Source: Isoetes taiwanensis (Eukaryota; Streptophyta; Lycopodiopsida; Isoetales; Isoetaceae). From it: a DNA stretch of 64,000 nucleotides. Below the pieces are notes generated by a model that had not been told where the DNA came from, made no database searches, and worked only from the letters and a program-made list of their open reading frames with translations. How positions within the stretch are numbered: position 1 is the stretch's first letter; the number at the start of each line of letters is the position of its first letter. Made by a program: the position numbers and the translations under genes. The stretch is taken from positions 1,119,524 to 1,183,523 of the forward strand of contig JAJEKV010000095.1 in the NCBI GenBank assembly GCA_021234155.1, in the 5' to 3' direction. Below are positions 7,206 to 34,078 of this stretch, in pieces.

Positions 7206-7316
7206 GTTCTGCTTATATCATTTGAAAAGCAATTCCATTGGTTGGTCAGTCTCAAAGTGATAGCCAAGTAGTGTGCCTCTTTGCTTTTTGGTAAGAGTTC
7301 TGGTTACAGTAACACC

Positions 7317-7376
7317 AACCAAAGGTGCATGGTCCAAGGCCTTATTAACCAAAGGTGCATGGTCCAAGGCCTTATT
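7317..7376. repeat. 30-bp perfect tandem duplication
   Basis: AACCAAAGGTGCATGGTCCA and the following ten bases occur twice in a row. Confidence 0.85.
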
Positions 7377-8249: not shown

Positions 8250-9522
8250 CCGTGCGCAGCACCTTGTTTTCTTTTCTATTTCCCTTTTCCCATGCCCTTT
8301 TTCCCACCCTTTTCTTCTTTCTATTTTTCTCGTGCTTCCTTTTCCTCCTTTTCCCACCCTTTCCCTCTTCCCGTGCAATTTTCCCTTCTTTCAACCCTTC
8401 CTTTTTTTTCTCTCTTTTCCTTTCCTCATGTCCTTTTTCCCTTTCCCTCCTCTCCATCACTCCCCTGCTTCCCTTTCCCTTTTTTCCCGTTTCCTTTTCT
8501 TGATGGATTTTTTTCTTTCCGTTTTCCTCCTTTGCCGATCCTTTTCCTGTGCACTTTTTCCCTTCCTTTCCTTTTTCTTTTCCCTTTTTCCATGCCTTTT
8601 GCACATTTGTTTTATTCTCTTATTTCCTATACCCATTTTCCTCTTTTCCCCACCCTTTCTCTCTTGCCCCTTTTCTTTTCCCTTTCTTCTTTTTTCCCTT
8701 TCGTCACCATTTTCCTCTTCCCTTTTCTCTCATGCCCTTCCCCCCTTCCCTTTTCTTGTTTCCCTCTTTCTTTTTCCTTGTGACCTTTACCTAGGTTCCC
8801 TTTCCCCCTTTTCCCTTTCTTTTTTCTTTCTTCTCACTTTCCCTTTTTCTATGCCCCTTTTCTTTTCCCCTCTCCCCATCCTTTTCTAATTCCCCCTTGT
8901 CCCTTCCCTTTTCCTCATTTTTCCAACCTTTCACTGTTCCCTTTTTTTGATGCGTTTTTTCCCTTCCCTTCCCTTTCCCTCTCTTTTTTTTTTCCCTTTT
9001 CCTATGCCATTTGTCCCTTCCTTTTTCCTCTTTCCTCAACGCTTCTCTTTTTCCCCCTTTTCCCATGCTCCTTCCTTTTCCCATGTTTTTTTCTCCTCCC
9101 CATTTCCATGCTTTTTTTCTCCTTCATTTTCTCCTTTTTTCAATCTTTTCCTCTTTTCCTTTTTTTTTCATGCCCTTTACATTTACCTTTTCCACTTTAT
9201 CTCTTCCTCCTTCCCTCGTGCCATTTTCCCAGGTTCCCTTTCCCTTTTTCGTTTTCCATGCCTTTTTCTCTTCTCTTATCCCCACCCTTTTCCTTTTACC
9301 CTTTTCTCTTTTCCCTATGCCTTTTTGCCCTTCACATTCTCTCTTTCCACTTCCCTTTTCCTTTTCCCCCTTTTCATTTACCCTTTCCCCTTAAAAGATC
9401 GAAGCATGACCAATCACAGTGTTGGTAAGTCGTGCAATCAATCTAGGCCTTCGGATGCATCCAGATGATCTCGGCCATTCAAATTAGGGCTCGATGCACT
9501 ACACACTTACGGTATAACATTA
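8250..9522 (-). mobile_element. Helitron copy E1 (outermost of the nest, 3' end lost)
   Basis: A C/T tract at about 8270-9390 is followed by the family's conserved 5' region (CCAATCACAGTG, AAGTCGTGC, ATCTCGGCCATTC) and then GGTATAACATTA. Its last ten bases are separated by the insertion of E2 and lie at 13634-13643. No hairpin or CTAG is visible before the tract, so the 3' end appears deleted. The tract is very close to that of E3 (8272-9300 against 12475-13580). Confidence 0.7.
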
Positions 9523-11915
9523 CTAGTTAAGGTGCCCAGCGTTGCTGGGCATAGCTAGAAACTGTGAATGACATACTGGAGCAATTGTTAAATGTATTTA
9601 TGTTTTTAAAATTAGATAATCAAGCATTCGACCACATTTTGCACTTCCCCTTATCTTTTCCGTTTTCTTTTTTCATTTTGCCTTTGTCTATTATTATTTT
9701 TTCCTATTTTCCCCTTGCCCTTTTCCCTTTTTACATTTTTCAATTTACTTTTTTCTTTTTCCATTATTCCATTTCTTCTTTTTCTCTTTTTTGTTTCTGC
9801 TTACCCATTTTTCCTTTTCTATTTTTCCCTTCCCTTTTCTCCAATTTGTGGTTGCCCTTTTTCCCTTTCCCTGTGCCCTTTCCCCCCTCTCTTTTTCCAT
9901 TTCCCTCATCCCCTTTGCCTCGTGCCCTTCTTTCTAAGTTTTCCTTTCTGCTTTCCCCTTTCCTTTCCCTTTTCCCTTTCCTTCTCCCCACCTTTTATTT
10001 TTTCCCATTTTTCCCTTCCCTTTTCCTCTTTTGCCCAACCCCTTGAGTCTTCCTTTTTCTAGTGCCATTTTCCCTTCCTTTTCCCCCCTCCTTTTTTTTT
10101 TTCCCTCTTTCCCTTTCCCTTTTTCCATGTCCATTTTTTCCTTTGGTTTCCCCTTTCCTCACCCTTTCCCTCTTCCCTTTTTTGCCATGTCCCTTTTCTC
10201 TTCTATTTTTTCATGCTCTTTTTTGGCTCCTCTTTTCCCCTTTCTTCACCTTTTCCTCCTCCCCTCCTTTTCCTTTTTTCCTTCTCTTTTCTTTTTCTAT
10301 TTTGCTCTTTCTTTTTATTCACCTCCCCTTTCTATTTTTCCATTTTACCTCCCGTTTTTTCCCTTTTGCCTTTTTCCATTTGCTTCCACTATTTTCATGC
10401 TTGCCTTTTCCATTTTCAACCTCCTTGCTTTTCCCTTTTTCTATCCCCTCCCCTTTTCACATTCCCTTTCTCATTTTACCTTCCTTTTCTCCCATTCCAT
10501 CCCCTTCGCTTCCCTTTCCCCCTTCCCCTTTACCAATGGCCTTTTTCCCTTCCCTTTTCCTCCTCTCCCGACCCTTTCTCTATTTGGTTTTTTTTCGTGC
10601 CCTTTTTCCCTTCTATTTTTCTCTCTTCCGCCTCCTTTTTATTTCTTTTTTCCCTTTCTTTTTCTCATGTCTTTTTTTCCCTTCCCTTTATTTCTCTTCC
10701 CCTTTTTACAGTGCCATTTATTCCTTCCCTTTGCCCACCCTTTCCCTCTTTCCTTTTTTTCATAGTCTTTTTCTTACCCTTTGCTCCCTCATTTGTTCTT
10801 TTCCTTTTCCCTTTCCCCTTTCCTCCCTCCTTTCTCTTCCTTTTCTCCGCTTCTCTCCTTCTTTTCTCTTCCTCTTTTCCCCATGCCCTTTTTCCCTTTT
10901 GCCCCTCCCCTCGCTTTTTCCTTTTACCCTTTCCATCCCTTCTCTCCTCCCTTTTTCTCTTTCTTTTTTTTTCGTGTCCTTTTTCCCTTCTTTTTTTCTC
11001 CTTTCCCCACATTTTTTCTCTCCCCCTTTTCCTTTTTTTTTTATTGAAGGCGACTATTTATATTAAGTATAGGTTAAATATACAAAAAGAACCTTTTTTC
11101 CAGGGAAGTGTAACCCTATTTCAGTTTAAGATACTTTTAGAAATCTCCCCCTTTTCCACTGTCCCTTTTCGCTCCCTCCTCCTCTCCCCTTTTTCCCTTT
11201 CCATTTTCCTTTCCTTTTCCCTTTTCCTTTTCCCTTCCCTTCTCTCCACCCTTTTCCTTATCCCCTTTTTCCCTTCCCTTTTAGTCCTGTCCTCACCCTT
11301 TCCCTCTCTTTTCATAGTGTCATTTTTTCCTTTATTTTCTCTCTTTCTTTTCCTTTCTCTTTTTTGTGCTATTTTCTATTTCCTTTTCCCTTTTATTCGT
11401 GCCTTTTTTGCCTTTCACTTTGGCTTTATCTCCTCCCTTTTCCTCCTTTCCCCACCTTTTTACTCTTCCCCTTTCCCAGTGTTCCTTTTCACTCCCTCCT
11501 CCTCCCCCTTTCTTTTACCTTTCCCTTTTCTTTCCTTTTCCCTTTTCCTTTTCCCTTCCCTTTTCTCTACCATTTTCCTCATCCCTTTTTCAACTTCCCT
11601 TTTACTCCTATCCTCATCCTTTCCATCTTCTCCTTTTCATAGTGTCTTTTTTTTCTTTATTTTCCTTTCCCTTTTTCGTGCTCTTTTCGCTTTCCTTTTT
11701 TCTTTTCTTTCTTTCCCTTTTACTCGTGCCTTTTTGCCTTTCACTTTGCCTTTTTCTCCTCCCTTTTCCTTTTCCCTTTCCTCTTCAGACATTAAAGCAT
11801 GGCCAATCATGGTGGCGGGAAGTCGTGCGATAAATCTCGACCTCTGAATGCAATCGGATGATCTCAGCCATCCAAATTAGGGTTTCATTCATGACATACT
11901 TACGCTATAACATTA
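9523..11915 (-). mobile_element. Helitron copy E2, inserted in the 5' end of E1
   Basis: The + strand starts CTAGTTAAGG then GTGCCCAGC-GTT-GCTGGGCA, the reverse of a Helitron 3' end. It runs through a C/T body to the conserved 5' region and stops at CATTA (11915), where E3 begins. Its missing ten terminal bases are at 13624-13633. A non-pyrimidine interruption lies at about 11040-11145. Confidence 0.78.
11036..11150. other. Non-pyrimidine interruption within the E2 tract
   Basis: About 110 bases of ordinary composition (GAAGGCGACTATTTATATTA onward) split the C/T body of E2. It may be a small insertion or the scar of a tract-to-tract rearrangement. I see no duplicated target or terminal repeat. 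Confidence 0.4.
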
Positions 11916-13623
11916 CTAGTAATGGTGCCCAGCGTTGCTGGGCATAAGTTGAGAGCCTGTAAATGCTTTGGGATGCAGTGAGAAAAGCCCTATCCCTTTC
12001 CCTTTCCCTTTTGCTCTATCCCGCATTTCATTTTTTCTTATTTTCTCTACTTTTTTTTTTCTTTTCTTTTTTTTTCTCGTCTTTCTCACATGTTTCCTTG
12101 TTTTCCCATCCCTTTCCTTCCCCTTTCCGTGTTCCCGATAACCTTTTTCCCTTCCCTTTTGCTCCTTTCTCCACCTTTTCCCTCTTTCCTTTTTTCTTTG
12201 CCCTTTTCCCTTCCCCTTTCTCTTTTTTTATGCCTTCTCTTTTCCCCACCCTTTTTCCATGTCTTCCCTTTTTCTCAACCTTTTACTCTTTCGCCCTTTT
12301 CCATGCCTATTTTCCCTTCTCTTTTCCTCCTTTTCCCACTCTTTTCCTCCTTTTTTTTTGTGCCCTTTTCCCTTCCATTTTTCTTTTCTCCCTCCCGTTT
12401 TCCATGCCCTTTTTACCTTCCCTTTTTCCATCTCCTCACCCTTTCCCTCTTTCCCTTTTCCATGTTCTCTTTTTCTCTATTTCCCTTTTCCCATGCCCTT
12501 TTTCCCACCCTTTTCTTCTTTCTATTTTTCCCGTGCTTCCTTTTCCTCCTTTTCCCACCCTTTCCCTCTTCCCGTGCAATTTTCCCTTCTTTCAACCCTT
12601 CCTTTTTCTTTTCTCTTTTCCTTTCCTCATGTTCTTTTTCCCTTTCCCTCCCCTCCATCACTCCCCTGCAATGTAAGGTGGTTGGGGGCAGGGCCCAACC
12701 GTGCAATGTAGTGTGGTGTGTGGTCACATGTCCAGTTGGATGCTGCCTAGTGGCGTGACATTAAAACTACTATCTATCTATCTATCTTTCCCTTTTTTCC
12801 CATTTCCTTTTCTTGATGGATTTTTTTTCTTTCCCTTTTCCTCCTTTGCCGATCCTTTTCCTGTGCACTTTTTCCCTTCCTTTCCCTTTTCCATGCCTTT
12901 TGCACATTTGTTTTATTCTCTTATTTCCTATACCCATTTTCCTCTTTTCCCCACCCTTTCTCTTTTGCCCATTTTCTTTTCCCATTTTTCTTTTTTCCCT
13001 TTCTTCACCATTTTCCTCTTCCCTTTTCTCTCATGCCCTTCCCCCCTTCCCTTCCCTTTCTTTTTCCTTGTGACCTTTACCTAGGTTCCCTTTCCCCCTT
13101 TTCCCTTTCTTTTTTCTTTCTTCTCACTTTCCCTTTTTCTATGCCCCTTTTCTTTTCCCCTCTCCCTATCCATTTCTTGTTCCTTTTCTTATCTTTCCTC
13201 ATTTTTCCAACCTTTCACTCTTCCCCTTTTCTTGATGCGTTTTTTCCCTTCCCTTTCCCTCTCTTTTTTTTTCCCTTTTCCTATGCCATTTGTCCCTTCC
13301 TTTTTCCTCTTTTCTCAACGCTTCTCTTTTTCCCCCTTTTCCCATGCTCCTTCCTTTTCCCATGCTTTTTTTCTCCTCCCCTTTTCCATGTTTTTTTTCT
13401 CCTCCATTTTCTCCTTCTTTGAACCTTTTCCTCTTTCCTTTTTTTTTTCATGCCCTTTCCATTTACCTTTTCCACTTTATCTCTTCCTCCTTCCCTCGTG
13501 CCCTTTGCCCAGGTTCCCTTTCCCTTTTTCATTTTCCATGCCTTTTTCTCTTCTCTTATCCCCACCCTTTTCCCTTTTCCTTTTACCCTTTTCCCTACGC
13601 TATAACATTATAATATAAAGATA
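11916..13623 (-). mobile_element. Helitron copy E3, innermost of the nest
   Basis: It begins CTAGTAATGGTGCCCAGC on the + strand with a perfect 8-bp hairpin stem and loop GTT. It has a C/T body and ends CATTATAATATAAAGA (GA at 13620-13621, plus an extra TA). It sits exactly at the CATTA^TAAT position of E2's 5' terminus. A 119-bp foreign insert lies at 12670-12788. Confidence 0.8.
12670..12788 (+). mobile_element. Short element with (CTAT)n tail inserted in E3
   Basis: The sequence starts AATGTAAGGTGGTTGGGGG and ends GACATTAAAACTA(CTAT)4. E1 has the uninterrupted site (CCCCTGC directly followed by TTCCC near 8464), so this is a real insertion. Two relatives with longer GATA/GAAT tails lie in reverse orientation at 44606-44870 and 53081-53310. 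A constant head plus a variable microsatellite tail suggests a small non-LTR retroelement, but no polymerase III box is convincing. Confidence 0.6.
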
Positions 13624-13643
13624 TAATATAAGATAATATAAGA
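13606..13643 (-). other. Three stacked Helitron 5' termini
   Basis: CATTATAATATAAAGA (E3) is followed by TAATATAAGA (13624-13633) and TAATATAAGA (13634-13643). These are the displaced last ten bases of E2 and E1. The number of termini equals the number of nested elements. Confidence 0.8.
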
Positions 13644-13868
13644 AGATTGGGTCGTATAAAAACCACAAGTTGAGATTCCATTAATTGCAAGTAAAAGATC
13701 ATAATTAACCTCATGGTATACAAAATGATTTTGGTACTAAGAGACAAATATTATAAGAATCTTTTTCGTTTGATATGCTATGAATCAAGTTGTTTTAACA
13801 TTTAGCTCTTCATTTAGCTTCCACAAACATTTAGGTATGGACAACAATTGCATATTGATGTCATACAT
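13644..13868. other. Short AT-rich stretch, nothing recognised
   Basis: Ordinary intergenic sequence between the Helitron nest and the 53-bp repeat array. Confidence 0.5.
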
Positions 13869-14302
13869 GCATTAATTACAAGGGCCCTTGGGTAAGTCAA
13901 AGTTATTAAATATAGGTGACTGCATTAATTACAAGGGCCCTTGGGTAAGTCAAAGTTATTAAATATAGCTGACTTGCATTGCATTAATTACAAGGGCCCT
14001 TGGGTAAGTCAAAGTTATTAAATATAGGTGACTTGCATTAATTACAAGGGCCCTTGGGTAAGTCAAAGTTATTAAATATAGGTGACTTGCATTAATTACA
14101 AGGGCCCTTGGGTAAGTCAAAGTTATTAAATATAGGTGACTGAATTAATTACAAGGGCCCTTAGGTAAGTCAAAGTTATTAAATGTAGGTGACTTGCATT
14201 AATTACAAGGGCCCTTGGGTAAGTCAAAGTTATTAAATATAGGTGACCGCATTAATTACAAGGGCCCTTGGGTAAGTCAAAGTTATTAAATATAGGTGAC
14301 TG
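13869..14302 (+). repeat. Array of eight 53-54 bp repeats
   Basis: Eight direct copies contain ATTAATTACAAGGGCCCTTG and end TTATTAAATATAGGTGAC (starts near 13871, 13924, 13983, 14037, 14091, 14144, 14197 and 14251). The unit resembles the two degenerate units at the edge of the composite repeat (41093-41150), so the array looks like an expansion of that edge. AAGGGCCCTT is palindromic in each copy. Confidence 0.88.
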
Positions 14303-14343
14303 CCCCATGGGGACCTCGTGTGGTATGTCAAAACTATTATATA
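14303..14343 (-). mobile_element. Composite repeat copy A, outer edge before E4
   Basis: GCCCCATGGGGACCTCGTGTG through TTATATA matches 41098-41140. The copy is broken here by E4 and resumes at 15826. Orientation follows the integrase at 19800-20009. Confidence 0.75.
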
Positions 14344-15825
14344 CTAGAAATGGAGCCCAGCGTTGCTGGGCATAGCTAGGACTGGAGCAAATTGTAGATG
14401 AATTCACGTTCTTAATCACACAATTAGTCCACCTCCCCTTCCTTTTTATTTTTTCTTTTCCTTTTACGCTTCGATGCCCTTTTTTTCCTTCCTTTTTTTT
14501 TATTTAGCTTTTTTCTTTTTCCGCTCTTCCATTTCTGCCAACTTCCTTTTCCCCTTTTTGTTTTCCCCTTCCATTTTTATTTTTTTAATTTCGCAATCTA
14601 TTTTCTCCCATTTCTAGTTGCCCTTTCCTTTTTCCTTTTTTCACACTTTCTCCACCCCTTTTCCTTTTTCCTTTTTTGCTTCCTTTTCCATTTTTCTATT
14701 CCCTCCTTTTCCCTTTTTTCTTTTTTCTATTTTTCTCTTCTTTTTTGTTCTCTTCCCCTCCACTTCCTATTTTTCTATTTTACCCTTATTTTTTCCTCAT
14801 TCCCTTTCTTCTCCTCCCCATTTCACTTCCCCTTTTCCTTTCATCTTTTATCCTTTTCTTTTTCTCCGCTCCCCTCTCCTCTCCTCCCCTCCTCTTTGCT
14901 TCGCTTCCCTTTCTCCTTTCCCTTCCAATGGTCTTTTTCCCTTCTTTTTTCCTCCTTTCCCAGCCTTTTCTCTCTTCCACTTTTTCCTGTACAATTCTTC
15001 CCTCCCATATCCCCCTCCCTTTTCGTTTTCCTTTTCTCTTCCCTTTTCCCATATCCCTTTTCCCCACCTATTTTTTCTTCTCTTTTTCCCAGTGCCCTTT
15101 TTGCCCTTTCCTTTATTTTCGTGCCTTTTTTCCTTTCTTTTCCTCCTCCTTTGTTCTTTTCCCTTTCCTTTTTTCCATACCTTCCCTTTTTCCCTTTCCT
15201 CACACTTTCCCTCTTTCTTTTTTTTCCCTTCACTTTCCCCCCTTCCTTCTTCTAGTTTTCTCTATGCCCTTTTTTCTTCCCTTCCCCGATTCTTCCTCTC
15301 TTTTTCTTTTCCCTTTTCCTTTCTCGTCTCCCCTCCCTTTTTCTCTTTCCCTTTTCCCGTGTCTTTTTTCCCTTCCCTTTCGCCTTTCCCCACATTTTTC
15401 CTCTTCCCCCTCCCAGTGTCCCTTTTCACTCCCTCCTCCTCCCCCTTTCCTTTTTTCCTTCCCTTCTCTCTACCCTTTTCCTTTTTCCCGTACCTTTTAC
15501 TCCTGTCCTCACCCTTTCTCTCTTCTCCTTTTCGCAGTGTCTTTTTTTTCCTTCCTTTTCTCCCTTTCAATTTCTTTCCCTTTTTCTGTGCTCTTTTCCC
15601 TTTTATTTTCCCTTTTCCTTCTTTCCTTTTTACCCATGCCTTTTTGCCTTTCACTTTGCCCTTTTTTCCTCCCTTTTCCTTTTTCCTTTCCCTTTTCAAG
15701 GCATGGCCAATCACAGTGGTAGGAAGTCGTGCGATAAATTTCATTCTTCGGATGCAATTAGATGATCTCAACTGTATAAATTAGGGTTTGATTCATGACA
15801 TACGCTAAAACTTTATAATATAAGA
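14344..15825 (-). mobile_element. Helitron copy E4 with matching empty site
   Basis: The + strand begins CTAGAAATGGAGCCCAGC-GTT-GCTGGGC, has a C/T body, the conserved 5' region and the end TTTATAATATAAGA before host T (15826). The flanks TTATATA and TAGGTGACC are contiguous in the relative at about 41129-41150. That empty site supports both ends to the base. Confidence 0.85.
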
Positions 15826-16184
15826 TAGGTGACCGCCGTGGGGACACTAAGTATCTAGTGCCAGCAAATCGTTGTTACATTACAATTGACCTACTTAATA
15901 AAGATGCCATTTGTTGCTAGAGTGCAATATTATACTGCTGTGTAGAAGTCCCCTACATAGCGGAATGGAAGTAGGGCCGCACCATTCCACGTGACTAGCT
16001 GCTTAGGTTTTTTTTTTCAGGGTTGCGACTGCCATAGTTTTTCTATTCGAAGATCTTGACCTGCTTTGGATTCGATTCAGTGGAATGGTGCTTTGGATAT
16101 GGATTTTAATATTTCATTGATTGTTGTTTGCAAGTTATATGGAGTCGTCATTTTTACCTCTTCCCTAGAACCTATAAATATTTA
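15826..16184 (-). mobile_element. Composite repeat copy A, segment between E4 and E5
   Basis: TAGGTGACCGCCGTGGGGAC through CCTATAAATATTTA parallels 41142-41500 with many small indels. The whole edge segment (TGTT...AACA ends in copy B) could be an LTR, but part of its inner border also occurs elsewhere in the composite, so the LTR call is tentative. Confidence 0.6.
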
Positions 16185-18323
16185 CTAGTAATGGTGCCCA
16201 GCGTTGCTGGGCATAAGTTGAAAACCTGTATGGAAGGAAACATGTTCAGCTCAACTCCCTTTCATAAATCTTAGATAATGGAATTTAAGCTCAAAAGGTT
16301 TTTGTCCACTCGAGTATCGTTTCCATTTCTCTTTGCCTTTTGCTCTATCCCGCATTTCCCTTTTTTCTTTTCTTTTTTTCCCATTTTCCTACACACTTTC
16401 CTTTTTCTTTTTCCCTACACATTTTCTTTTCTTTTTCCCTTTTTCCTTTTCCCCTTTTCTTTTTATCCCGCTTTTCCCTTCCCTTCCCTTTCCACTTCAT
16501 GTTCTCCTTTTTCCCTTTTCCCTTTTTCTGACATTTTTTTTCCTTCCCTTTCATCCTTTCCAACCCTTCCCCTTTTTAATGTACCCTTTTTCCCTTTCCT
16601 TCCCCCTTCCTTTTCCTTTTCTATTTCCTTTTTTCTATGCCGTTTTTCCCTTCATGTCCTTTTTCTTCCTTTCTGCACCTCTTCCCTTTTTTCTCGTGCC
16701 CCTTCTCCCTACCTTTTCTTTTTTATTTTACATTGTCCTATGCTCTTTTTCCCTTCACTTTTTTCTTTTTTCTCACCCTTCCTCTCTTTCTCTTTTCATG
16801 CCCTTCCCCTCCTCTCTTTTTTCATTTCCCTCTTCCCCATTCCTCGTGCCATTTTTTCCTTTTTCCCCCTTTTTTATGTGCCCCTTTTCTTCTTTTTTCG
16901 CACCCTCTTCCCGTTTTCTTCATGCCCTTTCTCCCTTTCCTTTTTTTTTTCCCTTGTGCCGTGCTTTTTTTCCCCACTTTTTCATTTTTCTCACCCTTTC
17001 TCTCTTCTCTTTTTCATGTCATTTTCCCCCTCTCTTTTCTCATTTCCCTCTTCCCCATTCCTCGGGGCCTTTTTTTCTTCCTTTTTCATCCTTTCCTCTC
17101 TTCCCGTGTCCTTTTTCACTTTCTTCCTCCCTTTCCCTTTCCTTTTCATTTTTTCTTTCCTTTTCCCTTTTCCCCGACCTTTTTCTCCTTTCTCCATCAT
17201 CTTTCTCTTTTCCCTGTGCCCGTCCCTCCTCCTTTTTTCTTTTTTCTTTTCGCTTTTTCCATGCTCTTTTTCCCTTCTTTTTTCTCCTTTTCTCACCTTT
17301 TCCCTTTTCCCTGTGGCATTTTTCCCTTCCCCTTCCCATTTTCCATTTCCCTTCCCCCTTTTCCTCGTGCTCATTTTCCCTTCCCATTTCCCCTTTCTGT
17401 ATTCCCTTTTTTTCTCTTCTCTTTATCTTTTTGAATGCCCTTCTTCCCTTCACTTCTCTACATCATTCTCCTCTTCCCCTTTTTTCGCTTCAATTTTCCT
17501 CCTTTCCATACTCTTATCCCTTCCTCACCACTTCATTCCTTCCCTTTTTCCCTCTTCCCCTTTTCCCCTCTTCCTCGTGTCTCTTTGCCTTTTCCTTTTC
17601 ATCTTTCCACCCCCCCTTTTTCTTTTTCCTTTCCCTAACTTCCCCCCTTTTCCCGTGCCCTTTTTCTCTTTTCTCCCCTCCTTTCTTTTCCTTTTCTCTT
17701 TCCCTTTTCCATTACGCCCTTCCTTTTTCCCCACCTTTTCCATGCGCTCCTTTTCCTCCTTTCTCTATCCTCCTCTTCTTTTCCATTTGAGCGTTCTCAT
17801 TCATTTTTTTTTCGTTTTACTTTTTTCATGCTCTTTTTTCCTTCCTTTTTCCCCTTTTCTCAACCTTTCCCTTTTGCCCTTTTCCCATCTCCCTCTCCCC
17901 TTTTCTAAATGCCCATTTTCCCTTCCCTTTTTCCCTTTCCGCATGTCTTTTTTTCTTCCCCTTTCGCTTTTCCAATGCCCCTTTTCCCTTCCCTTTTCCT
18001 CCTTTCCCCACTCTTTTCTCATTGCCCTTTCTCCCTTCCTATTCCTCTCGCCCCTCTTTGTTTTCTCTTTCTTTTTCCCTTTTCCCATGCCACTTTTTCC
18101 TTTACTCATCATTTCCTTCTTCCCCCTTTTCCCATGCCCTTTTCCCCTCTTCCCCTTTCCCTCGTGCCTTTTTCCCTTCACTTTTCCTTTTTCATTCTCC
18201 CTTTTCCTTAATCTTCGATATTGCAATAAAATCATCACCGTCCGATTAAGCCAATCAAATCTACATCATTAGATTTAGGGCTTGATGGAAAACGGACACA
18301 CGCTAAAACATTATAATATAGGA
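16185..18323 (-). mobile_element. Helitron copy E5 with matching empty site
   Basis: CTAGTAATGGTGCCCAGC-GTT-GCTGGGCA at the left, a C/T body from about 16320 to 18200, then CATTATAATATAGGA before host T (18324). The relative at 41490-41510 reads ...GTTTA directly followed by TTGTTAGAC, which is the empty site. E5 and E3 share the flank after the hairpin (TAAGTTGA), forming one subfamily; E2 and E4 share TAGCTAG, forming another. Confidence 0.85.
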
Positions 18324-19110: not shown

Positions 19111-19794
19111 TCACATAAGTTTATGCCATAATTCTAAGGACAAACCCGGCCCCCATACCCTACCTCCATACAGCACCACCGCTTGCACCAGCACTTTGAA
19201 TAACATTCTTTTCAAACTAAATTTCTGTATATCCGCTTTCACACATTTCCTTTGCAATGCAAAAAAGGCCTTAAGCCCCCCATTTACCCACTGCTCTACT
19301 GTTTGATTCCACCTGAATTTTTTATCCACTAGAAGCCTCGAGTACTTATACGATGTAGCAATCTCTACTGTGTTTCCCTTATATGAAAAACCATAATTCT
19401 TATCTAGGATCTTCCCAAAAAGCACCACCTTAGTCTTGCCCAAGTTCACCTGTAGCCCCCTCGCATCATCAAAAGAGGCTAGGGCATCTAAATGCCTCTG
19501 CATTCCCTCCTTGCTTAGGGCAATCAACAGAATACCATGTTCATATAACAGCAAAACATATCTAGCCACAACTGCACCTTTTTCCCCATACTTCCCCACC
19601 CATTCTTCCAATCCATCAATAAAGATCCCAAAAAGTGTTGGTGACATCGGGCACCCCTGTTTAACCCCCACATCGCTAATCATCTCCTCGCCACATTCCT
19701 CAACAAATGGGGTAGAAAGAGTAACCATATCTCTTTTATATAACATTCGCACCGCATCTTTGTATTCTGCAGGCACCCCTACCCGTTTCAACAC
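19111..19794 (-). pseudogene. LINE reverse-transcriptase fragment inside the composite repeat
   Basis: A 227-residue open frame carries non-LTR reverse-transcriptase motifs: GVKQGCPMSPTLFGIFIDGL (fingers/palm), VNLGKTKVVLFG and KAFFALQRKC. The catalytic Y-A-D-D position reads YEHGIL, so both aspartates are gone. It is only the middle of an ORF2. It abuts the integrase fragment at 19800, and the same junction recurs near 43955 and 52430. Confidence 0.75.
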
Positions 19795-19799
19795 AAATA

Positions 19800-20009
19800 T
19801 TGAGTAAAAGCATATTGAGTAAAAGCATGTGATTTATAGTCACCACCATTGTCACTTTGCAATCTCTTCAATCGCCTGCCCGTTTGTGTTTCAGCCATTC
19901 CCTTAAGCTCCTTGAACTTAATTAATACCTCAGACTTGTTCTTGAGAATATAAACATGTGTATAAAGAACACAAAAATCGGCCGGATAGATAGGCTTGTC
20001 ATTCATCAC
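19800..20009 (-). pseudogene. Ty1/copia integrase core fragment
   Basis: VYILKNKSEVLIKFKELKG followed by LQSDNGGDYKSHAF is the copia integrase core around the second catalytic aspartate. The upstream part (FVDDFSRYT in the other copies) is replaced here by unrelated sequence. Downstream the frame runs into the LINE fragment rather than into copia reverse transcriptase. Confidence 0.75.
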
Positions 20010-22377: not shown

Positions 22378-23090
22378 AATAGAATAGAATAGAATAGGTT
22401 TTTAGCGTCCACGGAGACCAATTGGCCTATGGGACCCAAACAAAAAGAGAGCAGCAAGCGTATTACTGACAGGATTAAAAAACCCCGCCCCGAACGGTTT
22501 TCGAGGGAAAAACCTTAGCAGTAATAAGCATGCTGGCATACTGTACAATTGCATATGACAGTTCAATACCGTCCCGTAGGATACAAACGAGTTCGTGCAT
22601 CCATAACCTCCTGGAGGTATGACCCCAACAATCCCACTGACGCCATAGTCAATAACTGATGCAATGGCTGGCCAGGCACTAGTAATCGAACATATTACTC
22701 TCGGACATGGGCAAATACTGGGCAGATCTGGAGGGTATGACATTCATCCTCAATCGCGCCCTGGTGGCAACACTGGCAAAGCCTTTGCTCTCGTGGTTCC
22801 CGAGCCCAACGTCCTGTTTCAATGCGGAGGCGATGTGCACCCGTGCGAATGGAAGCTATAAGTTTGCGCTTCTTCATGGGCAGCTGGGTGTAAAAGTACT
22901 GGTATGGGCCTCTTATGAGCCTAGGATTGACTTGCTGCTGATAGTATGGCAGCTTAACGTGCGTCAGAGCCTCTGCATCCCAGAGCTTGCGAAGGAAAGT
23001 AGCATCTAGATACAGTTTAAGTGTCTCGCGATCTTTCTTTGTCCTAACCTGGACGCATCTGTTTGCCTGCACACCCCAGCGTGAGAACCA
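22378..23090 (-). mobile_element. 5'-truncated LINE inserted in a methyltransferase exon
   Basis: The minus frame 23072-22695 encodes a LINE ORF2 C-terminus with HRLRIETGRW and a C-x2-C-x7-H-x4-C zinc knuckle (CQCCHQGAIEDECHTLQIC). The 3' end is a (TATTC)n tail, read as AATAGAATAGAATAG at 22378-22395. It splits ...REVLK from LKEEG; TTAAAG on one side and CTGAAG on the other may be a degraded target duplication. Confidence 0.75.
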
Positions 23091-23201
23091 CTGAAGGAGG
23101 AGGGTATGGATCTTAAAGAGGCTGATATTCCTAGCAGGGAAGCTGGTGAGCTAATTCATGTAAAGCCCTTAAACCTTTGTTTCTAAGAAGTAAATTGATT
23201 A

Positions 23202-24824: not shown

Positions 24825-25117
24825 AGGGGGGGAATAGAGGATGAAAACCATATGATTAACGACTGCCCGATCTATGGGGACATCAGGGACAGATATAGAA
24901 ATATAAAGTGGGGGGAACCAATCCCGGGATGATGGCGATGTGAGGAATCGTTACGGGATCTGGCAGATGCGATCCAAAGAATGATGACCAGACACAGAGA
25001 GGTACACAGTGAAAGAGGGCTTGTAATATGATCTGTACAATACGGGTCATATAGCCCCACACAAATTGCTCAGCTAAAAGCTGATTGATAACGACGCATC
25101 ACTGCACGGCCAAGAAG
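24825..25117 (+). mobile_element. LINE ORF2 3' end, left part of a split LINE
   Basis: GIEDENHMINDCPIYGDIRD and RNIKWGEPIP are the zinc-knuckle tail of the same LINE type as at 22378-23090. An in-frame TGA follows PIPG, and LVI-stop comes near 25029. Its 3' UTR runs into the TIR element at 25118 and appears to resume at 33885. GAAG at 25114-25117 may be the duplicated target. Confidence 0.65.
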
Positions 25118-25190
25118 AACAAGGTTTAAAATGAAACGCACTTATTTAAGAAGTGCGTTTGAAAGATTCCTTTATAAAAATTGGAAACTT
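25118..25190 (+). repeat. Left terminal inverted repeat with subterminal hairpin
   Basis: AACAAGGTTTAAAATGAAACG is followed by the perfect 10-bp stem AAACGCACTT / AAGTGCGTTT (about 25134-25160), then TTTGAAAGATTCC. Confidence 0.7.
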
Positions 25191-25586
25191 GAAAAAAATG
25201 GACAAAATAGGGAGCAAAATAGATTGTTGAGCAAATAGCATTCGAAATACCCCAAAAAAAGCAACATTTTTGAAGCCTTTTCATTTTTTAAGAAGGGCAA
25301 AAAAAAAAAAAGCTTGTTTTGAGGAGAGAGACATTACATTTAAAAACTCATTAAGTATTTGTTGTTGAAAATAGAAGGAAATATAGTTTTGTGTTTTTGC
25401 AAGCTTAATATAAGTACTAAGAAAATCAAACATAGAAAAGAAAGAGTGCGAAATCATGAATCAAAAAAAATTGTTCTAATTAAGCATTGTTGAAGAGACA
25501 AAGTTTTTTAGGTTGAGAAATCTTCATCAAAATATATTGAAATTAAGTAGCACATAGATTACAATGAAAGATAGTTTAAAATCTTT

Positions 25587-25997
25587 GTGCGTATAAATTT
25601 ATCACGGGAGGTGGCTCTTCCCGTCCACAGGACTCTCTTTCCCCTTAGGATCGGTCTCTTGCGAGGTTATAATTGCGAGAGGCGCCCCTCCCGATTCAAT
25701 GGTGCAGTGCAGTACATTTCTCGGCTCGAGGCACCACGGGCTCGGATCGGCGAACTCCACCTCCTCATTTCTTCTTCCCGTAAGTGGAATTTTGGATTTA
25801 CGTATATGTGCCTTTTACATCGCCCGACACCATTTTTTGCTCCCAATTCCTCGTTTTCATCGGGGAAAGGATTCACAAGAGCTTATCACGGTCACGATGA
25901 AACTTATTTTGTCGGGTCTATGTCGGCGGAGACAACATTGCGCCCACAGCAAGAAGCAAAGCTGGCTTCAATGGTGCTGAGCGAGAAAATCGTCTAA
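25587..25997 (+). CDS. 136-codon frame, unknown, inside the TIR element
   Basis: Open from ATG-like context near a single palindrome copy (25591) to TAA at about 25995. It has no motif I recognise, and the opposite strand is also open over 25667-25876, so strand and reality are uncertain. It may instead be the 3' end of the minus-strand gene. Confidence 0.25.
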   Translation: MRINLSREVALPVHRTLFPLRIGLLRGYNCERRPSRFNGAVQYISRLEAPRARIGELHLLISSSRKWNFGFTYMCLLHRPTPFFAPNSSFSSGKGFTRAYHGHDETYFVGSMSAETTLRPQQEAKLASMVLSEKIV

Positions 25998-26350
25998 GAT
26001 CCGGTCCCGGTGAGAAAACCACGTATCAAATTATTAATAAGTATTTGTGGCCCGATAATGGGACACCACGGCCTTGTCGGCCAATGGGTCTCTTAATTTT
26101 TGCAAAACCGCCGGGGGCGAAGCGCGTGCGGGGAGGAGTCTTTTCATTTGCGTATTAAAGTGAACCATGGTTTTTTGGCGTCTGCTTATTTGTAAAACCC
26201 TATGTGAAAATGCTTTCGAAACAACTTACTAAGCGCGGACCACCACCATGACCCTTAGCGTTTGTTTTAAGCACGCCAAAGCTTGACACAACAATGAAAT
26301 ATTAGTAAAATAAAAACAAGGAAAATAAGTTAGCTTCGATGTGGTGTGGC

Positions 26351-26482
26351 GGTATAAATTTATACCGGGGTTGCCTTGCGGTATAAATTTATCCACAGTA
26401 TTCTAGCCGATATAAATTTATCTGAGACATTGCCTTGCTATATAAATTTAAACCTTAGGCGGTTGTGGTATAAATTTATACC
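26351..26482. repeat. Palindrome cluster 1 (five copies)
   Basis: Copies near 26351, 26379, 26408, 26438 and 26467 of GGTATAAATTTATACC or its half-degenerate form, 28-30 bases apart. The cluster lies just downstream of the last readable exon of the minus-strand gene. Confidence 0.85.
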
Positions 26483-27554
26483 GTGGAGTTACTAAAAGAA
26501 AAGCGTTAAATGTTAAGCTTACCAAATCACGGTTTTCAAAGCCGGCATTCTGAGACGGCTCCCATAGGTTTAAGCAGGCATTGTTTGTAGGTCGAATGGA
26601 AAATGATGACCCTCGGTTAGCGAGATAAGGTGACTTCCTTGAGGGCCTTCAAAAAGAGTGGACTTTGCGTCGTGAAAGCCTCCTCGTCAAAAGCGTCGTC
26701 CTTAATTTTTGAAACCATAGGGGAATATCGCAATGCATAATGTGAAGTTACGCTTCTCCAAAAGTGTCCCCGACCTCGTGCGGTCACCCTCAACAACTCG
26801 TACATGCGGTCGACCAAGCGTTGTAAATCTTTCATAAAAGTGTCAAAATTTGCTAGTGGCGACCTCCTTTCCTGTTCGATTGCCTTAAGTCTACGCCTCT
26901 CTTCCTTGGCCCTCTGAACCCGGGTTTAAAAATCAGTGCGGGGCCCCTTTTTCTTGTTACGTAAGAATATTGTGAGAAAAAGGCACAAACAAAGAACATA
27001 TTTTTAGCAAAACTTACCCGACCACTAAAGTTAACGGCGTGCTCTCTAATGATACTATCGATTAATTTACAACTTGGGTAGAAAGCTTGCACTCCTCCAG
27101 TCCTCTAGGTTTAAATTTTGCTTCATTAACTTCGGCTGGCGGTGACAATGTCTTCATTTGCAAAGAGAAACATGTTGTAAGACCAGAAAATGTAGAAGAA
27201 ACCACGGCATTGCAAATGTGGCTACGTCTTAGCTTCCTTGGCCATTTTAGATCTAATGTAAATTCCTTGGTACGACTTTTTTCAAAAGGCGAACAAAAAT
27301 TTCTTTGCTTTTTAATCCCCATAGCTGCGTCCGGTACAATGCTCATATTTTTTCTGTTTTAATTCTCCACCCTTTTTGGTTTTCCTGCGAAGACTTTGCT
27401 TGCTCTTTAAGCTCACCATCTTGAACATACAAAAATTCTTTCTTGAAGATCCCACACGTAAATGGACAAAGCGCCATTAGTTTAGTGTTGCTTAAGCGTA
27501 AGAGAATATGTTACCACGATCTACTTTCTAAATCATTATGTATGGTGTGTAGTC

Positions 27555-27900
27555 GCGGTATAAATTTATCACGATCCACGGATACGGTATAAATTTATGC
27601 TTGACTAAACCGCGGTATAAATTTATCTGCGCGACTAGGGGCGGTATAAATTTATACCTGGTGCCGATTATGATATAAATTTATACCATGCGGACGCGGT
27701 ATAAATTTTATCTGACTTAAACGCGGTATAAATTTATCTGCGACTAGGGGACGGTATAAATTTATACAGTGCACGGCCCGGTATAAATTTATACAGCTGA
27801 CTAGTCTTGGTATAAATTTATACCGTTGGGGCGCGATATAAATTTATAAATCACTATCGCGGTATAAATTTATCGCGGCCCGCGGTATAAATTTATACCG
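27555..27900. repeat. Palindrome cluster 2 (thirteen copies, about 28-bp spacing)
   Basis: Starts near 27556, 27585, 27613, 27642, 27671, 27697, 27724, 27752, 27780, 27809, 27833, 27860 and 27883. The core is TATAAATTTATA. Left flanks are mostly CGG; right flanks are ACCG in full palindromes or C-TGCG in truncated ones. Spacers of 9-16 bases differ. It lies in a gap between protein-like blocks of the minus-strand gene. Confidence 0.92.
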
Positions 27901-28961
27901 TCTTGAAGAGCACTTGTAACCGCGCTAAACATACTACAAAACATAGAAGAAGAGCATTTACTTACTTGACCATCTCGAATGCGGTGAAAGTAGTTATCGT
28001 ATTGCTTCTTTGCCATAATGGGCTTCTTATCATAGTCATAGGCGAGGCTGACACTCATCCAGCGGGGCTTTCTCGAAGCTCCTGCGGCTTGTTCTTTTGC
28101 TTTTTAAAATCCTCTCCATACATTTGTTTTAAATTCCCGCGTACTCCGCGTTGCATAAAGCGGATCTTGTCTATTAAACTCATTTTAATCTGAAGTCATT
28201 GTCGAGATTATGACTCACGGCAATGACTTTTGCTTCTTCATCGTTACACCAAGCGTATATATGTGCTTCAGCGGCTCTTCCACACGCCGTTCACGGCTTT
28301 CCTCTTTTGCTAGTTCTTTCCTTGCCTTGTAACTATGTGTGCCTCCAAACGTGGTATGTGTAATCTTGAAGTGACCTTCTTGTAATCTTTTAGTTGGTTG
28401 CCTTTGACTCTGTCCACCATAACAACTAGTGGCGACACATGGGCATGAGGATTTCTTCTCATTCTTTGTTTGATTATAGCCACATGTGCAGCATCTGACT
28501 TCCGGGACCTGTAGCACTCGACCCCATCTTCATTTTAGGTGGCCTCTTAATGGTGCTCAATGTCAAAGAAATAGTTTGCTTTAGCGGTTTTAGTGTCATT
28601 CACCCGGCTTGAGAATAGCACTTGATTTATCTGCGAGGCTTCACAACAATATCTGCTCCGGGGAGCCTACGAAGAGCTTACGTTGACTCCTCTATAGTCA
28701 AAGCCTTTGTGCCTCTAGATTTTTTTTTTGTAGGAGCACTGTGTATCTACTCTGAGGGAATGCTTTCTACCCTTTCCCTTTGTTACCCTTTGGTTCCTCT
28801 TCCTCTTCCTCTTCTTCTTCTACTTCCTCGTCCTTCTCTTCAAACTCTTAGTTAGGGTGGGGTACCACTGGACCTTTGACCAACTTTGTTTCTTAAAAAG
28901 CACTGGCCCGACATCAAAATGTCCACTATATCTGTAATGCGGGGTTAAGTTAGGAAGATGC

Positions 28962-28978
28962 CGGTATAAATTTATACG
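28962..28978. repeat. Single palindrome copy
   Basis: CGGTATAAATTTATACG, isolated between two blocks of the minus-strand gene. Confidence 0.8.
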
Positions 28979-29580
28979 TAAAGACACTAAACAATACTTA
29001 CATGGCCACTCTTGTAATTGTCGATACGTACTCATGCACATCTTTGGGTTTGCACATGCTTATTGAAGCATTTTACTTTCAAAACGTGAAGACTTCCCCT
29101 TGTCATGCATGCACTTCATTAAGATTTCATCATCGACCTCTGTAGCAATAAGGTTGACAATTTGCCCGGCGGGGTAATAATCGTCGATCTTGTACTTGCC
29201 CTTCCACGATTGATGACACAAGTAAAGATGCGCCTCGGTGGGTTTGCTCTCTCTTGCACCCCGTGGGCGTTACCGCGTCAATCTTCGGTTCGTAATACGT
29301 GGCTCTATTGGTGCGACCTTTGATGGGCCCCTTGTTTACAAACCTGATCTTGGGGCTGGAAAAAGCGTAAAGAAGGCCATTTTTATGCAAAAAGGAACCT
29401 TTTAAGCCCTTTTGTAACATAAAAGCAGTAAAAATAAAGAGTGAAAAAGAGCATAAAATCTACACTAAATTATCACTTTATTTGTGTTATTTAAGCTAAA
29501 AGCGCTTAAAGAATATTCTTTGAAATATTAAGGTTTTGCGACACTTCTTTAAGCACTAGACACCAAGATGGTTACGGATC

Positions 29581-29990
29581 GGTATAAATTTATCTGCTTC
29601 GACACGGCGGTATAAATTTATCTGCGAAACTTCCGATCGATATAAATTTATCTGCGGTGCTTTCGGCGGTATAAATTTATACCGTTCGAAACCGGTCGGT
29701 ATAAATTTATACGCATGGTGCTTTCGGCGGTATAAATTTATACCGTTCGAATTTCCGATCGGTATAAATTTATACCGCCCAGTGCTCGGCGGTATAAATT
29801 TATCGGCGTATTCTGGAGCGGTATAAATTTATACCTTCGAGCACCTAACGGTATAAATTTATACCGATCGAACTATATCGTATAAATTTATACCGCGTGT
29901 TGCAGGCGGTATAAATTTATACCGGTGGCTTCGTGCTCGGCGGTATAAATTTATACCGATCGAAATTACGATCGATATAATTTATACCGT
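29581..29990. repeat. Palindrome cluster 3 (fourteen copies, about 30-bp spacing)
   Basis: Starts near 29581, 29609, 29639, 29668, 29698, 29729, 29761, 29791, 29820, 29850, 29880, 29908, 29942 and 29974. Spacers show higher-order order: GTGCTTTCGG and TTCGAA/GATCGAA recur, and many repeats extend to CGGTATAAATTTATACCG. The cluster lies between the two divergent genes, where a shared promoter would be. Confidence 0.92.
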
Positions 29991-30106
29991 GGGCGCTACA
30001 CTCTAGCGATTAAAACAAAGAGAAACTAGAGCGATGCGGGTAGTAGACTTGCATTGGCCATGGCGGTATAGACCCGCGTATAGGCGTTCGAGAGAGCAAA
30101 TAAGGG

Positions 30107-30120
30107 GGTATATAAGCGCA
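30107..30120 (+). promoter_or_regulatory. TATA-like box between the divergent genes
   Basis: GGTATATAAGCGC lies about 330 bases before the likely start of the plus-strand gene. It is supported only by motif and position. Confidence 0.3.
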
Positions 30121-30252
30121 CCCCTTGGCGCCGACTCCGAGCTAGCATTATATAGAAAATAGGGTGGCAGCGGCAAAGTACCCTCTGCTAAGTCTTGCTT
30201 CATATAAGCTTCTCCATAAAGTTTTCAATACAAGTTAATGCGTGAGTTTTTA

Positions 30253-30395
30253 GGTATAAATTTATACCGCTCTGTTCTATGTTGCCCTCCTCGTATAAAT
30301 TTATACCATCTCAGGTATAAATTTATCTGATCTGCCGCCTTAAGTTTTTTCTTCCTGTATAAATTTATACCAACTCTCGTATAAATTTATACCGT
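30253..30395. repeat. Palindrome cluster 4 (five copies)
   Basis: Copies near 30253, 30293, 30314, 30356 and 30379, less regularly spaced (21-42 bases), just upstream of the plus-strand gene. Confidence 0.85.
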
Positions 30396-30436
30396 ATCTT
30401 CGAGAGAAAAAAGCTGCCGAGCCTCAACTCTGATTC

Positions 30437-33400
30437 ATGGGCTTCCTCCTGCAATGGCTTTCACACCTCCTCCACGGACACCGGGGAAGTAGCCGCAGAT
30501 ATTCTACATCAGACATTCCAACACCCGGACTCTGTTGAGTTTACTCGGCAAGACCACCTCGGCTTCCACCACCGGTTCAATTTACTCCACCACACCACGC
30601 TCTGAGGCGTCGTACGCCCCCCACCAATGCGTTTCACCCCACCTCGGGCTAGAGAGCTCGGACTACCTCCTCAATTCATCTTAGTGCGTCGCCCATAGTC
30701 CACGTGGTAGGCTCCCTCCACGGAGGCAAATCACACCAACTCCATCCATTTAAGCTAAATGGTACTACAACAAGTGGGGCGGTCGGCGACACGCCAACTC
30801 TGTGTTCTCACGACGCCGGGAGCTGGTCAACTCGTCACCGGCCTCGATTACTTTTTCGAGAGGAAAGCACCTCCCCAGGGCCTTGCCCACATCAAACCTC
30901 TCGGCATCTACAAGTACACCTCATGTTGATCTCTCGGGACGAAGAAACACCTCATGTTGATGTCTCGGGGCGAGGACCTACCAAAGCCACAAGACTCCAT
31001 GTTGAATTCAAAGCCCACGCAAGTAAAAATCTTAAAGCGTAACTTACACAAGGCGGCATGTACAGCCGTTAGAAGAAAGAAACTCATGGGCCGAGGCTCA
31101 CTTGCGGGCAACACATACAAAGCAGCTTGTTGTTCTCAAGCGTTGTTTGCTTAAGATTGGACTAAAGGAATTGAGGTTTGCATTGATAGTTACGGTTCAA
31201 TGACTACGCTAGACCAAAGGGGCTACTTAGCCTTCAATATTAGGCGGATGATGGTGAGAAGTTTACTTACGGTGACTGGTGGCCACGCAGATACGTCAAG
31301 CGGCCTTCAAATTGATTCATGCTTTAGGCGTGAGGCGACTTGACCGCTGAAGAAAAGGCGACAAGAATCGGGCATCAATGACTCTCGCCATTGGGAGGCA
31401 TAACGAATTCATGCTCTTCAATGTGTTTCTGGATGGAAGGTTTCTTTAAGAGTCTTGTGAGAAACTCCCCTAACAGCCCTATGTACCGCACTTGGTGACA
31501 ATTTCAGAAACCGAAGTCCTCGCGATAATTATAAGGAGATGTGTGTTGAGGTGGAGAGCGCTTTATGCGCTGCACTCTTGCTTTCGCATTATGCGGAAAA
31601 AGGAGTTTTCTCGGCGTGGCCGTTTCCCTAGAAATAGGATGTCGACATTTTGCAGATTAAAATACCGAGACAAAATGCAGGACACTTCGCACTAAAGTAA
31701 GCTTCGGGCCGTGTTCTTGCCTAGTTCTACGCAAAAGTAGGTTCTTTTCCTAAACATGTTTTCCTTTCGGATGCATTGAAGGGGCCCGAACAATACGAAC
31801 AACAATCTTTGGAAAGGAAAATTAATGAAACATAGGAAGAAAGCCTTTGGAACAACCACTCAACTACATATGGTTATTTATTGGAATGGACGGGAAGAAG
31901 ACCACCTACCACATTTTGTCGTATTGCCTAGGATCTTCTTGAGAAGAAGATTTCATACATATGTTGTTTGGTGCTGTATTTAATGGAAAACTATCTTAGA
32001 GGCATTTTTGAATTATCAAACGTTGGTATGATCCAAATCTCACTGTCACAATATTGAATAAGCTTCTTTCCAATCCTACAGAGACATGTAGGGTTCTGTA
32101 TCTTAATTTAGATAACACGACGAGGGAAATAAGAATGCGGCGTTGTTTGCCCTGCTTGTGCTATGCTAGTAAGAAACAAATCTTCAAGAAGGTGAAGATT
32201 GGTTTTCACCTTGTTAGTCATACACCACGACCAAATTGATGGATGTTACATTAGGTTCTCCTAAGCGTCTTGCTGAAAAAACAAGCACGCGGCCATGATT
32301 GAGGTCATCCAAGATTCCCTGTCGTCCGGACATCGAGTTATTGGAAGAAACTTATGATTTCAAGGAATGGATTTTTGGGAGATCAGCGCTAGGTCCTTTG
32401 TGCTATTGAGCCCATGAGAAACATTACATTTCGGCCTTCAGGATCAAAATTTCCTTGTAGATGGCAAGGCCATCTTACAAGAAGAAGGAAATATGCCACT
32501 ACATCCTTCGCATTTGGCAGCCCGGTAGCGGTATTCAATTCATTCACTTAACATCCCCAATACTAGTTCCATGCTCTCTGCCGGGTATAAATGCCTCTAA
32601 AAAGCTTGAAAGAAATCACAAGAGTAAAAGGAGGAAAGAGCATTTGACTCAAATAAATCATTGGATTGTATTGAGACAAGTATTGATCTGCTCTAACCAC
32701 TTTGGGGAAGCGGATGCTTTATAATTGGCCTCAATTTTTTCTACCGACAGCGTGACATGTTGCAAGCTTCATTACAAGGTCGAAGGCCAGTTACATTCAG
32801 CGGCCATCTAGGCAAACCCTCCTGATACCAGTTGAGAATCCAAGAGAACATGTAGAGATATTGGCTGGCTCGGATAGAGATGGCGGAGTCATATTACCGC
32901 GGCTGAAGCGCCGCGAAGCATGAAGTTACTTTCGAGTATACGAGTTCGATCTCTGAGATTCGAGAAAGGAATGCTCATAAATTTGTCGGCTAATGTGAAT
33001 GAATCACGGGAGGCCATTACGGCTAGCTAAAATCTTTGGAGAATGCTCGAGAGGATGGAATTCCCTCAATTAAAATTACCTTTGGATGAGCATTTATTTG
33101 CCAATGCTTTGATGGGAGTTATACTTTGGAGATAAAAGCGAGGAGTGGGAAAGAGAGCTAAGTCCAAAACAAGCAACTAACATCATAGATCTAAGCGGAA
33201 GTAAAAGTTCTTGCATATGACTTTGTTACATTTGCTTTGCTAATAGGATTCACGTGGTCCTCCAACTTTAATAAAAGGTCGGCATGTGGATTAGACAAAC
33301 AAGCCAAAAGGTGGCCAAAAGATGATGATGAAGACTCACTTGTAGGCAGGTGAGGAAGAAGATCGTTCGAGTACATCGATCTTTGAGTGAAGGCGAGGAT

Positions 33401-33560
33401 GAAGGCTCGGTGTCGGGGAATAAATGAGTAGAGGATGAGATGCATCCACGATCTTCTTTGCAAAATGTAAGTTTGTCAGATGGCTTCGAACATGTAAGAA
33501 ACGAGAAAGTCACGGTGATGAAGTTATACGTCAAAATATCCTATATTTTGACAATTTGTT
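30437..33560 (+). pseudogene. Plus-strand gene of the TIR element, putative transposase
   Basis: A Pro/Ser/Thr-rich N-terminal stretch starts near ATG 30437 or 30454. The core at about 31860-32700 reads MDGKK (31888), LFGAVFNGK (about 31970), WYDPNLTVTILNKLL, RVLYLNLDNTTREI (about 32088-32130), KKVKIGFHLV, HHDQID (32223-32240), DIELLEETYDFKEWIFG (32329 on) and WQPGSG...IHLTSPI. This order (D-G, L-D-N, H-x-x-x-D) matches, from memory, eukaryotic mobile-element proteins carrying the domain called DUF7869, an RNase-H-like nuclease candidate. The tail at 33300-33530 is acidic (SLSEGEDEGSVSG). Several frame changes and stops break it. The transposase role is inference. Confidence 0.55.
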
Positions 33561-33789
33561 CATAATTTTGTACAATTTTCCTGGCTTAGCAGATATATCA
33601 CTTCTTTGTCCTCTACCCTTGCTATTTTTTTATTGCCCTTTTTGCTTACACTTTATAAAAGTAACTATTTTTTGTTCTAGTTTAGGAGGATGAAAATTGC
33701 TGTTTCTAAAATTTTTGCGAGTTATGTTCAATCAACCCCTCAAAAATGGTACCTATAAATTATGAAATTGTCACACTGTCACAAAAATC

Positions 33790-33884
33790 TTAAAAATAGA
33801 CTTTTTAAGGGAATTTTTAGGGAATCTTTCAAAGATTCCTTTGAAGTCGTTCCAGCAAATAGTCGTTTCATTTTAAACTTTGTT
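33790..33884 (-). repeat. Right terminal inverted repeat with subterminal palindrome
   Basis: It ends CGTTTCATTTTAAACTTTGTT. Inside it, GGAATCTTTCAAAGATTCC (33821-33839) is a 9-bp inverted repeat around one base. Its half-site is shared with the left end. Confidence 0.7.
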
Positions 33885-34078
33885 GAAGCCAGAAATTAAA
33901 AGCGGGTCTTGGTATTAAAGGAAAAAATTGACCTTAGAAAGGCTACATTAAAGCAGTGATGTACTATTAGCACCCTTATGAGGAGCTTCGCCCATGCTAC
34001 ACAAGTCCGGGGGCCTTCACGGCACAAAAGGACATAAATGCTTATTCTATTCTATTCTATTCTATTCTATTACATATT
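33885..34078 (+). mobile_element. LINE 3' UTR and (TATTC)n tail, right part of the split LINE
   Basis: GAAG (33885-33888) is followed by non-coding sequence, then GGGGGCCTTCACGG and a run of TATTC units (34041-34071). This is the tail type of the LINE at 22378-23090. It supplies the 3' end missing from the LINE fragment at 24825-25117. Confidence 0.6.

Follow-up and report, generated by a model that had tools for sequence, protein, structure and literature searches.

Structure of the element

We analysed a 64,000-nucleotide stretch (hereafter, the window) of contig JAJEKV010000095.1 of Isoetes taiwanensis. Positions 25118–33884 of the window hold what is probably a degenerate cut-and-paste DNA transposon of the Sola superfamily. 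It carries two divergent genes, a DUF7869 gene on the plus strand (gene 1) and a gene for a putative ParB-like and DNA methyltransferase protein on the minus strand (gene 2), together with arrays of one short palindrome. The features are as follows, with TSD standing for target site duplication and TIR for terminal inverted repeat.

25114–25117: left TSD, GAAG, 4 bp
25118–33884: transposon copy, 8767 bp; long copies of 8.36–9.43 kb in the same genome share its ends
25118–25138, plus strand: left TIR, AACAAGGTTTAAAATGAAACG, 21 bases
25134–25160: left subterminal inverted repeat, AAACGCACTT/AAGTGCGTTT
26351–26482: cluster of palindromes, in the 3' part of gene 2 or next to it
26593–28531, minus strand: homology-supported part of gene 2, with stops and frame changes
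27557–27899: gene 2 array of palindromes, preceded at 27965 (minus strand) by GTAAGT, a donor-like site
28963–28978: a lone palindrome, which on the minus strand follows a donor-like GTAAGT at 29001
29581–29957: array of palindromes spaced about 30 bp apart, in the interval between the genes
30253–30393: second palindrome cluster between the two genes
31838–32649, plus strand: homology-supported part of gene 1 (E 2.3e-10), DUF7869 protein and predicted DDD transposase; the reading is interrupted by stops and frame changes
33821–33839: right-end palindrome, GGAATCTTTCAAAGATTCC
33864–33884, minus strand: right TIR, AACAAAGTTTAAAATGAAACG, 20 of 21 bases identical to the left TIR
33885–33888: right TSD, GAAG, 4 bp

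The original prediction, made from the window alone, had described near-identical 21-base inverted ends, a possible GAAG duplication, a second inner block shared by both ends, two gene remnants on opposite strands and dozens of copies of one palindrome, and each of these was borne out. The inner block is TTTGAAAGATTCC at 25158–25170; towards the 3' end, the palindrome GGAATCTTTCAAAGATTCC contains its inverted partner as one half. The subterminal repeat AAACGCACTT/AAGTGCGTTT is the same in 20 of 21 aligned rows, and the remaining one, L062, has one extra base. The same prediction held that composition and repeats set the segment apart from the rest of the window. This is right for the palindrome, all 36 cores of which lie inside the element, but the difference in composition is weak (GC per kb is 0.37–0.49 inside and 0.33–0.46 outside). 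The window copy is old and broken. Both genes are disrupted, and therefore it could move, if at all, only with help in trans. It also has many small insertions and deletions, some of them near the right end, which may in part be assembly errors.

Copies in the I. taiwanensis genome

We searched the assembly from which the window was taken (1.66 Gb, 1110 contigs) with the 21-base end, allowing up to three mismatches. There were 1377 forward and 1436 reverse matches, against 225 and 194 for a reversed-pattern control, and from these end counts we estimate the family at roughly a thousand copies. Pairing was analysed on 100 listed end matches, all of which were exact; as perfect ends were selected, they are not a random sample. 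Among them, 66 places formed 33 convergent pairs less than 16 kb apart, and the remaining 34 had no exact partner within 16 kb among the matches listed. Twelve of the 33 pairs are 2.1–2.3 kb long, six 3.5–5.9 kb, thirteen 8.3–9.4 kb and two more than 12 kb. When the window copy was added, an exact 4-bp duplication flanked 31 of 34 pairs, compared with 6 of 1122 mismatched left and right flank pairings, and exact duplications of 3, 5 or 6 bp were found in none of the 34. The three pairs without an exact 4-bp duplication were one C17 copy (L027/L028), C209 and C224.

We retrieved 20 of the 33 pairs in full: all thirteen of 8.36–9.43 kb, two of 4.8 and 5.9 kb, and five of about 2.2 kb. Among the matches listed, the long copies are about 71–85% identical in nucleotides to the window element over long stretches, and 13/13 of them have tblastn matches to both DUF7869 (plus strand) and the gene 2 protein (minus strand). 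Six of the seven shorter copies have no tblastn match to either gene, and L073 retains a gene 1 fragment. The shorter copies share the left 190–430 bp and the palindrome regions with the window element; a right-end match was found among the matches listed only for L079, and the terminal bases are nearly identical in all. As long as the window copy was the only one seen, as in the original prediction, the locus could have been a chance composite of genes, palindromes and ends from different repeats. This reading has practically no probability left, because the same genes lie between the same ends in every long copy and the 4-bp duplication is present in 20/20 copies fetched whole and in 31 of 34 pairs overall; we reject it.

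In two of the pairs, the TIRs are 12.3 kb (genome G000, C109:84872–97203) and 15.8 kb (C157:358457–374247) apart, and both have exact 4-bp duplications; these copies may contain nested insertions or additional cargo.

A relative in contigs assigned to Trichormus

A scan of prokaryote contigs returned eight sequences, L001–L008, all from one metagenome-assembled genome (MAG) that GTDB names 'Trichormus' (CAKZGI01, ERR2144891). These contigs bear interrupted transposon genes and retroelements. Trichormus azollae inhabits the fern Azolla. From these facts, L001–L008 are taken here to be Azolla fern DNA binned with that of the symbiont. A minus-strand gene 2 lies beside a plus-strand DUF7869 gene in five of the eight (L001–L004 and L008), and the other three contigs are shorter than 4.2 kb. 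The element in L001 ends in AACACG...CGTGTT, and when 7724 bp are deleted together with one AACA, a pol frame becomes open again. No 4-bp repeat was seen by eye in L003 and L008.

A different palindrome, GTCGATRCNNNGYATCGAC, has 37 sites in this MAG, against 0 in the control. They lie in eight contigs, each of which also has DUF7869 or gene 2. The sites stand between the two genes in L001–L004, at intervals of about 51 bp in L002 and L004. There are none in L006 and L008; in L008 the array is missing, as is the front part of gene 2. The gene plan recurs with different palindromes in the contigs taken as Azolla.

In L002, positions 6023–6787 and 6808–7580 form a direct duplication of about 775 bp (91% identity) that extends from the 3' part of the DUF7869 gene in the direction of the element end.

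Gene 1 encodes a predicted DDD transposase

Gene 1 probably extends over about 30.4–33.5 kb. The conserved DUF7869 part of a relative is predicted to adopt an RNase H-like, integrase-type fold with three conserved aspartates, and this model suggests that the gene 1 product is a DDD transposase. In 13/13 long copies, the best match set of gene 1 is spread over two or more frames and contains one or more stops, with a single stop in L072 among the segments listed. Part of the frame changes in the long copies may be due to introns. The ratio of nonsynonymous to synonymous substitution (dN/dS) was 0.31, 0.71 and 1.19 in three pairs, which says little on purifying selection.

No DUF7869 relative was confirmed in viral contigs, P0001 had no tblastn match in phages, and a viral fold library gave no match at E ≤ 0.001. 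Relatives at 35% and 40% identity were found in a Paceibacterota MAG (L009, 3326–4249) and a Flavobacteriaceae MAG (L010, 4–285); they are probably eukaryotic contamination and possibly genuine. A lancelet DUF7869 protein (P0101) also lists Ulp1 protease (PF02902), and one from Adiantum (P0071) lists integrase core (PF00665), which may be a fused gene model. Foldseek pointed to a C-terminal BAH-like domain of the transposase at E 0.05–0.1, as a lead only.

Gene 2 encodes a putative ParB-like methyltransferase

The identity of gene 2 was obtained solely through L001–L008: the stitched window gene had no match at E ≤ 0.001 among 5.8 billion proteins. PDB sequence searches gave nothing useful. 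The ParB-like region of gene 2 (28183–28531) matches the protein of the relative with E down to 5e-10, followed by a weak match at 27251–27457 (E 0.2–1.7) and another in the methyltransferase stretch, 26593–26788 (E 5e-4 to 0.006), where the window reads IFPYG and other copies read DIPYG. The N6/N4 DNA methyltransferase family PF01555 was recognised in one gene 2 piece of this relative, from L001 (33.9 bits, cut-off 26.7); the window gene shows weak local matches only. The L001 piece containing ADIPYG matched no Pfam family. The large exon of the relative reads NPHATVVPFLVMVD...VIGGSHSAEARRQL...AKLLAWDHNNDNDYR; its likeness to ParB was judged by eye, with no profile or model support, and a ParB fold is thus a putative assignment.

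The catalytic block was found in eight of the 13 long copies; seven read DIPYG, and L064 reads YIPYG. For the ParB-like region, comparison of L063 with L069 gave a dN/dS of 0.04 at a dS of 0.77 over 124 codons, and the other five pairs gave 0.06, 0.15, 0.21, 0.50 and 0.52, some with frame-shifted stretches. The low values indicate that at least one gene 2 lineage was long under purifying selection.

Neither the large exon (tblastn against phages) nor the L069 segment (tblastn against plasmids) had a match. With the methyltransferase piece of L001 there were matches in 145 phage records (best E 2e-5); the five inspected hold short methyltransferase genes, none of which has a ParB part annotated.

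Palindrome arrays

The palindrome GGTATAAATTTATACC occurs at 26 sites in the window at up to two mismatches, all within 26351–30393, where 0.01 were expected from shuffled sequence, and its 10-bp core, ATAAATTTAT, occurs 36 times. The array at 27557–27899 probably sits in an intron. In the I. taiwanensis genome, the unit is about CGGTATAAATTTATACCG, repeated at intervals near 30 bp, with 437 cores in 21 sequences. Perfect 16-mers number 124 inside the 20 fetched copies and 0 in their 100-bp flanks, and palindromes are retained in all seven shorter copies. Comparison of five short copies and six of 14 long sequences gave identities of 0.985–0.993 for cores, 0.683–0.791 for spacers and 0.835–0.906 for all else, although the cores had been selected for an exact match in the reference, and a unit may be aligned with the one next to it.

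The palindromes may be bound by the element's own proteins. Instead, they could be TATA boxes of two-way promoters, or a drifting minisatellite. TATAAATTTATA has TATAAA on both strands, one array lies between the divergent genes, and the bases flanking the core are little better conserved than the spacers (the four on each side are 0.678–0.816 identical between copies). However, arrays also lie in probable introns and persist in the shorter copies, and a minisatellite would be expected to homogenise its spacers too, yet the core stands out. Furthermore, the arrays of the relative (GTCGAT..ATCGAC) occupy the same position without TATA, which disfavours two-way TATA boxes as a general reason. 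We therefore consider the promoter or minisatellite explanation quite improbable. The arrays are conserved in position but not in sequence, as would be expected if the sites evolve together with a DNA-binding protein encoded by the element.

Relationship to known superfamilies

Sola elements have a DDD transposase, a 4-bp TSD, TIRs of 11–1124 bp, a length of mostly 2–9 kb and very variable ends (PMC10741241). The present family resembles this description in its 4-bp TSD, in its TIR of at least 21 bp and in the size of its long copies. As to the transposase, three conserved aspartates lie in the predicted RNase H-like fold of a relative, so that a DDD enzyme is a prediction. In addition, Sola1-1_Ec32 of the brown alga Ectocarpus has an opposite-strand accessory gene with ParB-like and N4C/N6A DNA methyltransferase domains, and its authors proposed that proteins of this type bind and modify the transposon encoding them (PMC12477816). 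Gene 2 has the same orientation and putative counterparts of both domains. Sola1-1_Ec32 is 21.5 kb long, compared with 8.4–9.4 kb here. The parts of that account considered here do not mention palindrome arrays, and no search for such arrays in transposons was made. Because the 4-bp duplication, the predicted DDD transposase and the opposite-strand ParB-like and methyltransferase gene all fit, we conclude with a probability of about 0.7 that this is a degenerate two-gene cut-and-paste transposon, most likely of the Sola superfamily and nearest to Sola1. We infer this membership from published descriptions of Sola elements. The superfamily, which the original prediction had called unknown, is thus probably a known one.

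DUF7869 might instead be a distinct DDD lineage, that is, a separate superfamily that also makes 4-bp duplications and acquired its ParB-like and methyltransferase cassette independently. DUF7869 is mentioned in none of the papers searched, and the family occurs in plants, algae, lancelets and echinoderms alike, both of which favour a separate superfamily. On the other hand, TSD length, predicted transposase type, element size and TIR length agree with the Sola description, and Sola is reported in moss, while seemingly uncommon in flowering plants (PMC10741241), and is listed for a fern: the repeat table of the Ceratopteris genome has a Sola row of 2739. A separate superfamily is accordingly rather unlikely.

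Other superfamilies were considered and rejected. Ginger1 and Ginger2 share 4-bp duplications and an integrase-like catalytic fold with the present family, but they have TGTNR ends and prefer CCGG/CCGT or RTATAY targets (PMC2836005), whereas our copies end in AACAA and their 31 TSDs are varied, with no CCGG or CCGT; rve had no match in the window element. Mutator duplicates 7–12 bp and Tc1/Mariner 2 bp (TA) (PMC10741241), against 4 bp here. The latter length also speaks against CACTA/EnSpm, hAT and PIF/Harbinger. CACTA/EnSpm elements make 3-bp duplications, seen in none of our pairs, and have CACTA ends; they too carry arrays of short binding motifs, but these are subterminal and ours are internal. 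hAT duplicates 8 bp and PIF/Harbinger 3 bp. piggyBac and Kolobok target TTAA, which is absent from the 31 TSDs.

Possible mechanism and significance

In the proposed mechanism, the DUF7869 protein, with its predicted RNase H-like fold and three aspartates, would make cuts at the AACAA termini and integrate the element at a target staggered by 4 bp. Gene 2, divergent from gene 1, would yield a ParB-like N6/N4 DNA methyltransferase that binds and methylates the element itself, and this methylation might protect or regulate it. The palindrome arrays are candidate binding sites for an element protein; the gene 2 product is the best guess, and otherwise the transposase. Both the catalysis and the identity of the palindrome binder are read from similarity and prediction. 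More tentatively, this land-plant lineage may mark itself, such that the ParB-like methyltransferase recognises element-specific palindrome arrays in a parS-like manner and methylates or coats the element. The arrays would then be essential cis-signals, kept in gene-less derivatives and shifting in sequence between lineages.

These results suggest a probable role for DUF7869, a widespread uncharacterised protein family. They also extend the transposon-borne ParB-like and methyltransferase cassette, reported from algae, to a genome in which the nearest named protein relatives are those of ferns and liverworts. The conserved palindromes provide candidate binding sites in a family whose end counts point to roughly a thousand copies, and make the idea that a transposon modifies its own DNA directly testable.

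Surroundings of the element

Rfam and tRNA scans of the window returned nothing. Retrotransposon remains lie on the minus strand at 19114–19833 and 22698–23150, in the form of a fragment of reverse transcriptase (RVT_1, E 9e-10) and a piece weakly matching zf-RVT. Long strand-asymmetric purine/pyrimidine stretches with AAAAGG- or CCTTTT-like units and skews up to 0.8 occupy 4000–6000, 8000–18000 and 60000–62000, and a tandem array of eight copies of a 54-bp unit (93% matches) lies at 13868–14301.

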